From Bacteroidota bacterium (lineage in GTDB: Bacteria; Bacteroidota; Bacteroidia; Bacteroidales; Prolixibacteraceae), in the NCBI GenBank assembly GCA_029265715.1, contig JAJUGZ010000005.1:1-64000 (forward strand): DNA of 64,000 bases. Reading direction: 5' to 3'. Below the pieces are notes generated by a model. It was not told the DNA's origin. It was given only the letters and a program-made list of their open reading frames with translations, and ran no database searches. Below are positions 3,020 through 56,004 of the stretch, in pieces. The first letter of the stretch is position 1. Each line of letters opens with the position of its first letter. The position numbers were made by a program, and so were the translations under genes.

Positions 3020-3236
3020 GTTTCATTCGTATAAATTTTCAAAGCCGGTTCGTACAATTTTCGTAACAGCTTTTTCTTTTCAATCAAATTAGCACCGACA
3101 TGGAATAGCCATTTGTACATCTTCGGGTGGTGTGAACTTTGGCGCACATGGCTATTTCATCTGTAAATGAGTTGTTTTTAACTTGTCAGATGGAATAGCC
3201 ATTTATTCATTCTCGTGCTCTTATGGCTATTTCGTG
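3020..3236 (-). repeat. Modular hairpin repeat A, locus 1 (two hairpins plus conserved box)
   Basis: Two imperfect palindromes (arms GATGGAATAGCCAT / ATGGCTATTTCGT at 3189-3235 and CATGGAATAGCCAT / ATGGCTATTTCATC at 3099-3161) are joined by a linker. About 31 bases further comes a 45-nt box (3021-3067) carrying two direct repeats, GAAAATTGTACGAAC and a close variant, 22 bp apart on the minus strand. The same modules recur near 12.8 kb and 55 kb. It fills most of the hisF-hisIE gap. No open frame is present. The strand given is the orientation in which hairpin precedes box. Confidence 0.85.
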
Positions 3237-11798: not shown

Positions 11799-12656
11799 TT
11801 ACAGGATCATTTTCTCGATCGGGATTACCAGGATGCCCTGAGCGCCGGCGGCTTTCAGCTTGCTGATAATTTCCCAGAAATATTTTTCTTCGATCACTGA
11901 GTGGATCGAACTCCAGCCTTCTTCGGCCAATGGCATGACTGTTGGGCTTTTCATGCCAGGGAGCAGCGACTCGATTTCTTTGAGTTTTTCATTCGGGGCA
12001 TTCAGTAAAATGTATTTTTTCTTGTCGGCCCGCTGAACCGATTCCATCCGGAATATCATTTCGTCGAGGATAGCCTGTTTTTCTGGCGAAAGATTGGGAG
12101 TAGCAATCAGTAAGGCTTCTGAGTTAATCACTACTTCAACTTCTTTCAGTCGGTTGCTGACCAGTGTGCTTCCTGAACTTACAATGTCGAAGATGGCATC
12201 GGCCAGGCCAATCCCGGGCGCGATTTCTACCGATCCGGTGATGACGTGGATATCGGCTTTTACGTTTTTCTGGTCAAGAAAATCTTTCAGGATAACCGGA
12301 TACGAAGTGGCGATTTTTTTCCCGTTGAAATATTCGATCCCGTTATAGACATCGTCTTTCGGAATTGCCAGTGATAGGCGGCATTTGCTGAATCCCAGTC
12401 GTTTGGCAATGATCACATTTTCTTTCTTTTCGAGCATTTCGTTTTCGCCCACAATGCCTACGTCGGCCACTCCGTCGGCCACTGCCTGGGGAATATCATC
12501 GTCGCGGAGGAATAAAACCTCTAACGGGAAATTGCTTGCTGCAGCAATTAGTTTCCGGGAACTGAGGGGGAGTTTAATTCCTGCGTCATCGATTAATTTT
12601 ACTGAATCTTCGTTGAGGCGTCCTTTTGTCTGGATCGCAATTTTTAAAATACTCAT
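11799..12656 (-). CDS. hisG: ATP phosphoribosyltransferase, long form
   Basis: First and committed step of histidine synthesis, joining ATP and PRPP. The 285-residue length and a C-terminal HisG_C domain (about residues 210-285, ACT-like) identify the long, homohexameric form that binds histidine directly and needs no HisZ. The catalytic part shows IAIQTKGRLNEDSV at the start. The PRPP loop is ADAIFDIVSSGSTL near residue 160. It is the first structural gene, and the attenuator hairpin ends about 20 bases before its start codon. The enzyme is thus expected to be controlled both by feedback inhibition and by transcription attenuation. Confidence 0.97.
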   Translation of the reverse strand: MSILKIAIQTKGRLNEDSVKLIDDAGIKLPLSSRKLIAAASNFPLEVLFLRDDDIPQAVADGVADVGIVGENEMLEKKENVIIAKRLGFSKCRLSLAIPKDDVYNGIEYFNGKKIATSYPVILKDFLDQKNVKADIHVITGSVEIAPGIGLADAIFDIVSSGSTLVSNRLKEVEVVINSEALLIATPNLSPEKQAILDEMIFRMESVQRADKKKYILLNAPNEKLKEIESLLPGMKSPTVMPLAEEGWSSIHSVIEEKYFWEIISKLKAAGAQGILVIPIEKMIL

Positions 12657-12710: not shown

Positions 12711-12789
12711 GGGTTAATATCTTTTTTGAAATTCAGACAAAACAATTACGGCCTACCGGTTGACAGGTTCATGTGATGATGGCCGTAAT
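12696..12789 (-). promoter_or_regulatory. his attenuator: pause hairpin and antiterminator
   Basis: Two mutually exclusive structures can be drawn. The pause hairpin pairs ATTACGGCC, which lies inside the leader's His-Tyr-Gly-His codons, with GGCCGTAAT at its stop codon. The antiterminator pairs GGTAGGCC (overlapping the pause hairpin's 3' arm) with GGCTTACC, the 5' arm of the terminator, over eight pairs with one G-U. A ribosome stalled at the histidine codons would block the pause hairpin and favour the antiterminator. This is the established logic of amino-acid attenuators; here it is read from sequence only. Confidence 0.82.
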
Positions 12790-12808
12790 GAGTAAATCCG
12801 TTTTTCAT
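12746..12808 (-). CDS. hisL: Histidine leader peptide
   Basis: A 20-codon frame ATG to TAA on the minus strand, too short for the ORF track, encoding MKNGFTHYGHHHMNLSTGRP. Four histidines occur within seven codons, directly over the pause-hairpin arm. It lies 90 bases upstream of hisG and ahead of an intrinsic terminator. It should act in cis as a sensor of charged histidyl-tRNA rather than as a functional protein. The start codon falls at the edge of the conserved box of repeat A (locus 2), so part of the leader's 5' end is made of repeat sequence. Confidence 0.85.
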   Translation of the reverse strand: MKNGFTHYGHHHMNLSTGRP

Positions 12809-12942
12809 TCGTATAAATTTTCAATGTAAGTTCGTACAATTTTTGTAACCGTGTTCGCTTTTCAAGCTGAATTCCAACGGATGGAATAACCAGTTATACA
12901 TTTTCGGTTTGTATGAGCGATGGCTCTTCTGGTTATTTCATA
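12801..12942 (-). repeat. Modular hairpin repeat A, locus 2 (one hairpin plus box)
   Basis: One imperfect palindrome with arms GATGGAATAACCAG and CTGGTTATTTCATA and a 35-base loop is followed on the minus strand, 31 bases on, by the same 45-nt box as at locus 1. Relative to locus 1 the stem core differs at two positions on each arm, and both changes keep pairing. The box overlaps the start of the histidine leader peptide. The rest of the 473-base gap between hisG and the GH105 gene holds the attenuator and the GH105 promoter. Confidence 0.85.
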
Positions 12943-51239: not shown

Positions 51240-51299
51240 TTTTTGATTTTTAATGGTTAATACAATAACCAATGAGGCAGGATTTTATCCTTGTTTTCG

Positions 51300-51392
51300 C
51301 CATCCCTTCGCCGGCATTACCCGGAGCAGGTTCGGTGGGTATGATCTCAGCCTGTTATTATTCCAGCTTGCGCCGGATAGGCACCCCATTGC
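51300..51392 (-). promoter_or_regulatory. TPP (thiamine pyrophosphate) riboswitch
   Basis: The minus strand carries the THI-box landmarks in order: GGGGTGCC, then GCTGAGATCATACCC, then GAACCTGCTCCGGGTAATGCCGGCG and AAGGGA. P3 is the variable arm GGCGCAAGC...; the CTGAGA and AACCTG-GGTAATGCC cores are intact. It lies about 60 bases before the receptor start and just after a good promoter. No clear terminator stem is visible before the ATG, so control may act on translation initiation. Confidence 0.95.
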
Positions 51393-51407
51393 GTAAAATT
51401 ATCGGTT

Positions 51408-54950: not shown

Positions 54951-55280
54951 ACAGATGAAATAGCCATAAAAGCTAAAGCTTATACCAACCGGGAATGTAT
55001 AAATGGCTATTCCATCTCGTTGAAAAACCATTTTGAAAAACAGAAATAGATACGAAAATTGTACGAACTAACATTGAAAATTTATACACATGAAATAGCC
55101 ATGATTTGCAAACACCAACAGATAATGAAAATAATAACCGGATCATGGCTATTCCATCTGACAACTTAAAAACAAATTATTTACAGATGAAATGAGCATG
55201 ATCTGGAAAACCCCAAACGGAATGATTAACAAATAATTATTTTTAATTGGCGTTTCTGCTAACCATGCTCATTTCATCAT
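54951..55280 (+). repeat. Modular hairpin repeat A, locus 3 (three hairpins plus box)
   Basis: The longest copy. Hairpin GATGAAATAGCCAT / ATGGCTATTCCATC with a 35-base loop is followed after 34 bases by the 45-nt box (55051-55094). The box runs straight into a second hairpin (ATGAAATAGCCATGAT / ATCATGGCTATTCCAT), then a linker nearly identical to that at locus 1. The third hairpin has perfect arms GATGAAATGAGCATG / CATGCTCATTTCATC and a loop of about 65 bases. There is no open frame. It lies between the HU terminator and the trmH gene, 32 bases before the latter. Confidence 0.87.
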
Positions 55281-55311: not shown

Positions 55312-56004
55312 ATGAAGAGGGAACTCGTTGATTTTCTTGTTGAATTTATTACCCCGGAACGGTCTGACTTATACGATAAAATATTAAAAGACCGGACACG
55401 CTACCTGACTGTTGTCTTCGAAGATATTTATCAGCCTCAAAATGCCAGCGCTGTTTTACGGTCGGCCGATTGTTTCGGGGTTCAGGATGTATATGTCATT
55501 GAAAATAAAAACCGATTTGAAGTGGATACCGAAGTGGCCATGGGTTCTTCGAAATGGATTGATATACATCGGTTTAATAAAAAAGAACAAAATACGCTTG
55601 ACGCCATAACGCATCTGAAAGAAAAAGGGTATCGTATTGTGGCAACCAGCCCGCATATTCAGGATACCAATTTGGAAGATTTCGATCTTTCCAAAGGAAA
55701 AACTGCGTTTGTTTTTGGAACAGAGAAACTGGGGATTTCGGATGTTGTGAAATCGGAAGCCGATGAGTTTATGAAAATTCCGATGTACGGTTTTACCGAA
55801 AGTTTCAATATTTCGGTGACTGTTGCCCTAACCTTGCACCTTTTGACACACAAGTTACGTCAGGAAAATACGATCGATTGGCACCTGACAGAAGACGAAA
55901 TGGTTGATGTTAAGCTGGAGTGGATCCGGAGAACTCTTAAAAGTGTCCGGTTGATCGAAGAAGTGTTTTATCGCGATCATCCGGAGGCACGTGGAAATTG
56001 TTAA
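55312..56004 (+). CDS. trmH: SpoU/TrmH-family RNA 2'-O-methyltransferase
   Basis: Transfers a methyl group from S-adenosylmethionine to a ribose 2'-OH, most likely tRNA G18. The 230-residue SPOUT protein shows motif 1 (NASAVLRSADCFGVQDVYVIE, near residue 45), motif 2 (FVFGTEKLGISD, near residue 140) and motif 3 (ESFNISVTVALTLHLL, near residue 165). It also has the C-terminal basic extension typical of TrmH rather than RlmB, which would carry an N-terminal RNA-binding domain absent here. The gene starts 32 bases after a hairpin repeat, so that repeat may contribute to its leader. The symbol is assigned from domain layout. Confidence 0.88.
   Translation: MKRELVDFLVEFITPERSDLYDKILKDRTRYLTVVFEDIYQPQNASAVLRSADCFGVQDVYVIENKNRFEVDTEVAMGSSKWIDIHRFNKKEQNTLDAITHLKEKGYRIVATSPHIQDTNLEDFDLSKGKTAFVFGTEKLGISDVVKSEADEFMKIPMYGFTESFNISVTVALTLHLLTHKLRQENTIDWHLTEDEMVDVKLEWIRRTLKSVRLIEEVFYRDHPEARGNC

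Follow-up and report, generated by a model that had tools for sequence, protein, structure and literature searches.

Hairpin modules bounded by ATGAA in a Prolixibacteraceae genome and its relatives: a dispersed family often seated at gene start codons

Background

Three loci of the window (the whole stretch of 64,000 nucleotides that was analysed) carry hairpins of a shared layout, at 54951-55280 on the forward strand and at 3093-3235 and 12809-12941 on the reverse strand. A sequence-only reading had counted six such hairpins and seen in them the scattered members of one modular family in which selection acts on the hairpin, resembling REP/BIME elements moved by a RAYT transposase or a structured RNA family. 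The layout is present at all three loci, and the stem pairs on which that reading rested, AGCCAT/ATGGCT, AACCAG/CTGGTT and GAGCATG/CATGCTC, are real. What, then, are these hairpins? Are there further copies, and have they moved? Is a transposase of the same genome responsible? Or, are the hairpins kept because they regulate the genes they precede? Here we follow the hairpins through the genome that holds the window (4.2 Mb in 200 contigs, the window being contig 27) and through 149 related genomes.

A large family of extragenic hairpins

The genome holds many more copies. A BLAST search with the 330-base interval 54951-55280 returned 60 matches. There are about 275 hairpin-arm sites, compared with 8 when the pattern is reversed, and complete hairpins number about 132, with 0 in the control. 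The hairpins are therefore not chance, and the family is large. Nearly all copies lie outside open reading frames, as high-copy extragenic repeats. The earlier reading of a scattered modular family, with its hairpin under selection, is supported.

At least one pattern match was found in 64 of the 149 related genomes, and the reversed control was near zero in most of the 149, with a few single chance hits. The exception is one relative (G147), in which the reversed control matched 11 + 11 times; these matches are perhaps another palindromic repeat family. Some of the listed pattern hits are themselves chance, for example self-complementary AT-rich stretches, and were left out where recognised. 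The hairpins of two relatives, G023 and G057, were discarded as chance matches, with none left once the TTCCAT foot was required.

A search of plasmids, phages and IMG/VR viral contigs gave no module match. Rfam assigned the modules to no family at gathering score, with weak sub-threshold matches alone at a relaxed threshold and no ribozyme among them. The window does contain a TPP riboswitch (RF00059) above gathering score, at 51286-51398 on the reverse strand. No published description of such an element was found in the literature covered, which took in a minority of the subscription papers.

Anatomy of the modules

The unit of the family is a head-to-tail module that reads ATGAA, hairpin, TTCCAT, A-rich tail, ATGAA. 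This anatomy comes from 79 further genome stretches, in which 127 hairpins were lined up and the arrays parsed. Modules start right after an ATGAA, which is sometimes decayed (e.g. GTGAA, TTGAA), and end with ATGAA; type A measures 133–135 nt, type B 97 nt and type C 143 nt, with ATGAA at the boundaries. Classes with other stems have a common foot and tail: ATGAAA, stem-loop, TTCCAT, an A/T-rich tail such as AAACAAATTATTTACAG, and ATGAA. The ends have no terminal inverted repeats and share identical short boundary motifs. Clusters are chains of modules in the same direction, head to tail, with one inverted case noted, the palindrome described below. The hairpins and spacers had been seen from the window; what had been missed were the ATGAA boundaries, and that the right boundary is usually a gene start codon.

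Another repeated module of 143 nt, CGAACATGCCACGGTAACAAAATTTATGGTGG...TATTTACTTATGAA, is chained with A and B modules at locus L122 (2143-2290) and is also present at L071, L084, L086, L089, L110, L125 and L131. Protein-like translations occur in places, but the frames differ between copies when the array sequences are compared by eye, and a protein-coding role was rejected. No longer, autonomous module occurs among the retrieved array parses and flanks.

In the window, the interval 54951-55280 is made up of a module A, a module B and a perfect palindrome, all on the forward strand. Module A (54955-55089, 135 nt) follows a left boundary ATGAA and closes at the ATGAA of the next module, as placed by boundaries and spacing in 93 arrays. 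Within it are hairpin 1 (54955-55015, ending in TTCCAT), a spacer and a conserved 45-nt box. Module B (55090-55186, 97 nt, in line with a uniform 97-nt spacing) has its hairpin 1 at 55090-55157, with TTCCAT at 55152-55157; directly after this foot, CTG at 55158-55160 pairs with CAG at 55184-55186, ahead of the next ATGAA, and this CTG/CAG pairing covaries across genomes. The palindrome, evident from sequence and fold, is the last hairpin of the interval (55187-55278) and by inspection resembles a pair of left halves, from modules of the GAGC class, set face to face. Compared with dinucleotide shuffles, the hairpin of module B (z -5.2) and the palindrome (z -6.9) fold far better, and the first hairpin does so moderately (z -2.3). 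Downstream of the array is a gene of 230 aa (55312-56004, forward strand, start ATGAAG, taken from the ORF list), whose translation resembles a TrmH-like RNA methyltransferase.

On the reverse strand, a degenerate B-type module (3161-3235), with its left boundary decayed to ACGAA and its end reading CAG-ATGAA, adjoins a module A (3027-3160) with the right boundary ATGAA at 3026. Here the module end is not at a gene start, the hisIE-like gene starting at 2954, 72 nt beyond. The other reverse-strand module A (12809-12941) has a compensated stem, TAACCAG/CTGGTTA, and its right boundary is the ATG at 12808. This terminal ATGAA supplies the start codon of a short ORF (12746-12808, reverse strand), translated as MKNGFTHYGHHHMNLSTGRP and a stop. 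The stretch from 12808 to 12690 on the same strand holds a terminator-like hairpin 3' of the peptide, and a hisG-like ORF follows at 11799-12656. Because of its His run and this context, MKNGFTHYGHHHMNLSTGRP is probably a his-operon leader peptide.

Covariation in the stem and in a second pairing

Had the stem changes been compensated, as was claimed? In the A/B family of this genome the stems are identical in 99 of 118 cases, and it is therefore the remaining module classes, and other genomes, that supply convincing compensation. For the covariation search of the 149 genomes, four stem letters and the letter opposite A4 of the foot were left free. Among 97 distinct listed hairpins, the free stem positions are paired 262 times against 185 +/- 7 in shuffles, a value that 2000 shuffles never reached. 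The stems seen include AGCC/GGCT, ACCC/GGGT, GCCC/GGGC, ACAC/GTGT, CGCC/GGCG, TGAC/GTCA and GAGC/GCGA. Opposite A4 stands C in 84 of the 97 and T in 1, a conserved non-pairing position (A.C foot). The GAGC/GCGA class is widespread and keeps, besides the A.C foot, a tandem G.A internal mismatch, in 27 of the 97 distinct hairpins.

A second pairing surfaced when short tails from many genomes were lined up. It links the bases after TTCCAT to those before the terminal ATGAA, as CTG..CAG, GTG..CAC, TTG..CAA, GCG..CGC or ACG..CGT. At the two variable positions of NNG/CNN, 57 and 56 of 61 distinct modules from relatives are paired, compared with 24.4 and 45.7 expected, and 0 of 2000 shuffles reached these counts. 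Shuffles, here as for the stem, leave kinship among copies partly in place, but the letter combinations are diverse. The host-derived left flank is unpaired, and in the long-tailed A modules the second pairing is not clearly present. From this second covarying pairing one would predict a base-paired new start codon: in folding, the functional start codon is mostly held in the second hairpin while the core of hairpin 1 also forms, with a predicted mean unpaired probability of 0.20–0.27.

Position at gene start codons

In the genome of the window, the terminal ATG of an array is the first codon of an ORF of 100 aa or more at 52 of 85 resolvable ends, with the MKNGFTHYGHHHMNLSTGRP end counted as short. 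To judge by their sequences, the genes begun in this way include enolase, dnaN, galE and many signal-peptide proteins. Is this a preference for start codons, or only for ATGAA? Of the 239 background gene starts in this genome 88 read ATGAA, and measured against other non-coding ATGAA the start codons are not in significant excess (p 0.09). A preference drawn from this genome alone is thus explained by ATGAA content, and the clear excess comes from relatives only.

In five relatives (G126, G049, G018, G012 and G017) the terminal ATG is a gene start in 34 of 41 copies, against a background, drawn from retrieved loci only, of 174 start to 317 intergenic ATGAA (p 3e-9). Three others (G105, G101 and G118) have 23 of 32 copies in this position, a figure that includes two overlapping, adjacent loci twice. 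All start-position ratios are approximate, the genes being called as simple ORFs, and a few of the relatives' ends are chains whose start lies behind a second module. Among copies that are not at starts and lie between co-directional genes, 11 are in sense and 2 in antisense direction, compared with 23:27 in the background (p 0.015).

Mobility and a proposed mechanism

The modules are mobile: near-identical copies are dispersed, the units are uniform, and empty sites exist. Near-identical copies precede unrelated genes, and two of them, one on contig 18 and one on contig 19, have 99% matches to the window over 140 nt. For the start-codon insertions at L114 and L117, the joined flanks match an uninterrupted site in relatives. 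At the first of these sites the gene starts with ATGAAA after a short native leader in several relatives; the left junction in our genome is GTGAA, which would fit the decay of a former start codon. At the second, the empty site has an ATGAAA start in some relatives and ATG followed by CAA, CGA or ATA in others.

We lean, with moderate confidence, to the reading that the modules are non-autonomous mobile elements that insert at ATGAA and are moved as a folded single strand by an HUH-type enzyme acting in trans. Insertion would take place preferentially at the start of a gene with AA as the first two letters of its second codon (Met-Lys or Met-Asn), and in the direction of the gene. The module would bring its own A-rich leader and ATGAA, after which the gene would begin at the module ATG, and the foot of hairpin 1 would retain the native start as a mini-ORF, usually of two codons (ATG AAA TAG/TGA). 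As the old start is kept and a new one supplied, genes could be hit and remain unbroken. Each boundary ATGAA would itself be a target, and module classes would therefore pile up head to tail. The cut would be made on the folded strand at ATGAA/TTCAT by an enzyme of the Y1 TnpA/RAYT-like kind, and the CAT(NNG) strand between the two hairpins may guide the recognition of both ATGAA ends. Single-strand movement and the guide role are the parts that we infer, as a best guess by analogy: guide sequences in IS200/IS605 recognise the element ends by pairing. In REPs the place of cleavage is set by the foot motif (GTAG), and unpaired bases of the stem are important for TnpA_REP (PMC8266576; PMC6006769).

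The main rival puts regulation first and is itself compatible with mobility. In it the modules would be a spreading translational control cassette, kept because they regulate, with hairpin 2 (CATNNG/CNNATG) hiding the new start codon; the accessibility of that codon would change when TTCCAT pairs with the ATGAAA upstream of it, or when a ribosome occupies the native start. The seat at start codons beyond motif content in relatives, the strong covariation of a pairing that includes the start codon, the predicted pairing of that codon and the sense bias of non-start copies would all suit it. Against this, the downstream genes are unrelated and the sites empty in relatives, and so do not point to a conserved regulon; many copies lie away from starts, and blocking the 5' arm changes the predicted accessibility in relatives little (0.20 to 0.18). 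Moreover, guide-based transposition would need the same pairing. As the primary account we judge a regulatory cassette rather unlikely.

The search for a mobilising enzyme

Could a resident transposase move the modules? Relatives and this genome were searched with general Y1_Tnp and Y2_Tnp models and with the resident Y1 protein. The genome of the window has one Y1_Tnp gene only, and a module lies inside its 3' end (GAGTATGATGAA, module, AAATATTTATGG). The relatives of this gene are uninterrupted there, ending EYDE(Q/K)YLWTD, and are flanked by the palindromes GGGCTTTCAGCCC and CCCAAGGC. Since they are uninterrupted and carry different palindromes, the hairpin in the Y1 gene is an insertion. 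The gene was rejected as the partner transposase, having itself been hit by a module and having relatives whose palindromes differ; the one candidate for a TnpA_REP or other transposase flanked by the same palindrome turned out to be an insertion victim. The inserted module (L009:1918-1995) keeps the frame open, and the Y1_Tnp gains a hairpin-encoded new C-terminus (IAMCANVHTNRKCINGYSIPELT).

The resident gene carries the signature YIxNQxxHH of subclass 1.2, for which the published TnpA_Y1 table gives no REP (PMC6006769). Subclass 1.2 genes at L009:1489-1995, L040-L056 and L170-L186 are flanked by GGGCTTTCAGCCC, CCCAAGGC, GGTGC..GCACC and CCCGTAGGG palindromes. In the relatives generally, Y1_Tnp genes occur commonly and are flanked by other palindromes.

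A classical REP/BIME or REPIN moved by a resident RAYT, the idea first raised for this locus, is for these reasons mostly refuted, and we consider it very unlikely. The copy number is high, the palindrome is imperfect, and a Y1_Tnp gene does have a copy in its 3' end. That copy is an insertion into a gene whose relatives carry other palindromes, the modules have no GTAG/CGTC foot, their chains run head to tail and do not alternate, and the Y1 protein scores 15.5 with the NCBIfam REP transposase model, below its cut-off of 80. Least probable of all is movement via RNA, in which a module in an mRNA near the start codon would be copied back by a reverse transcriptase: sense bias and start-codon preference would suit it, whereas no ribozyme or other Rfam match and no reverse transcriptase is linked to the modules, which are too small for known self-splicing introns.

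The HUH-type reading has points against it too. No parent element with module ends encoding a Y1 TnpA is present in this genome or in the retrieved Y1 loci of the relatives, which are draft assemblies. Adjacent arrays stand 14 in the same and 10 in opposite orientation, no bias by this indirect test on draft contigs. One relative (G118) has 8 similar copies and no match to the resident Y1 protein used as query, in a genome 94% complete. IS91-type Y2_Tnp is absent from most module-bearing genomes, and no mobilising enzyme or autonomous copy was found in the genomes and loci examined. Contigs C5, C18, C19, C31, C40, C60, C69, C152 and C183 of the window's genome end inside modules; the assembly thus breaks there, and a multi-copy parent element could be missing from it.

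We suggest tentatively, as a possibility short of our favoured reading, that this is a new kind of element, one that targets protein start codons, rebuilds the start and sequesters the rebuilt start codon in a second covarying hairpin, so that an insertion would leave the gene intact and make its translation subject to a structural switch. Repeats tend to be regarded as filler between genes, but this widespread family replaces the leader and start codon of unrelated genes, some of them core genes, and the genes themselves stay. If confirmed, the modules would be a natural case of a mobile element equipped to land safely at start codons; they would cause leaders in Bacteroidota to turn over rapidly, and they would allow one to study how a single folded strand can select its two ends through base pairing. 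Modules of this kind should also be reckoned with when start codons are annotated in these genomes.

Comparison with known systems

Like REP/BIME/REPIN with TnpA_REP (RAYT), the modules are dispersed as many hairpins per genome, have imperfect stems with conserved unpaired positions, and form clusters. Unlike these, they have the foot ATGAAA/TTCCAT in the classes seen and not GTAG/CGTC, they are larger and tailed, their clusters run head to tail, they are seated at start codons, and no partner gene is flanked by the same hairpin; membership in the REP/BIME group moved by a RAYT is accordingly not upheld. IS200/IS605 elements are coupled to the lagging strand, and an orientation bias is expected of them. 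With non-autonomous elements derived from this group (Y1 HUH TnpA) the modules share the lack of terminal inverted repeats, a fixed short motif (ATGAA) for insertion, present at both boundaries, and hairpins near the ends. The hairpins and their pairing with ATG covary, and a guide pairing with the boundary motif may be a further likeness. The modules differ in the seat at start codons with a regenerated ATG and in the internal NNG/CNN covariation, and they are without the parent with the same ends and the orientation bias (14:10) expected for miniature IS200/IS605. The modules thus work somewhat like REPs and miniature IS200/IS605, yet lack what defines REPs (GTAG foot, partner gene, alternating clusters).

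The atypical REPs of TnpA_Y1 subclass 2.6 in Bacteroidetes lack a GTAG consensus and are found at other places of the genome as well (Quentin et al. 2018, PMC6006769). The only Y1 gene here carries the subclass 1.2 signature. Likened by description only, the subclass 2.6 REPs share with the modules the occurrence in Bacteroidota, the missing GTAG and the dispersed copies, and they are possible relatives of the modules.
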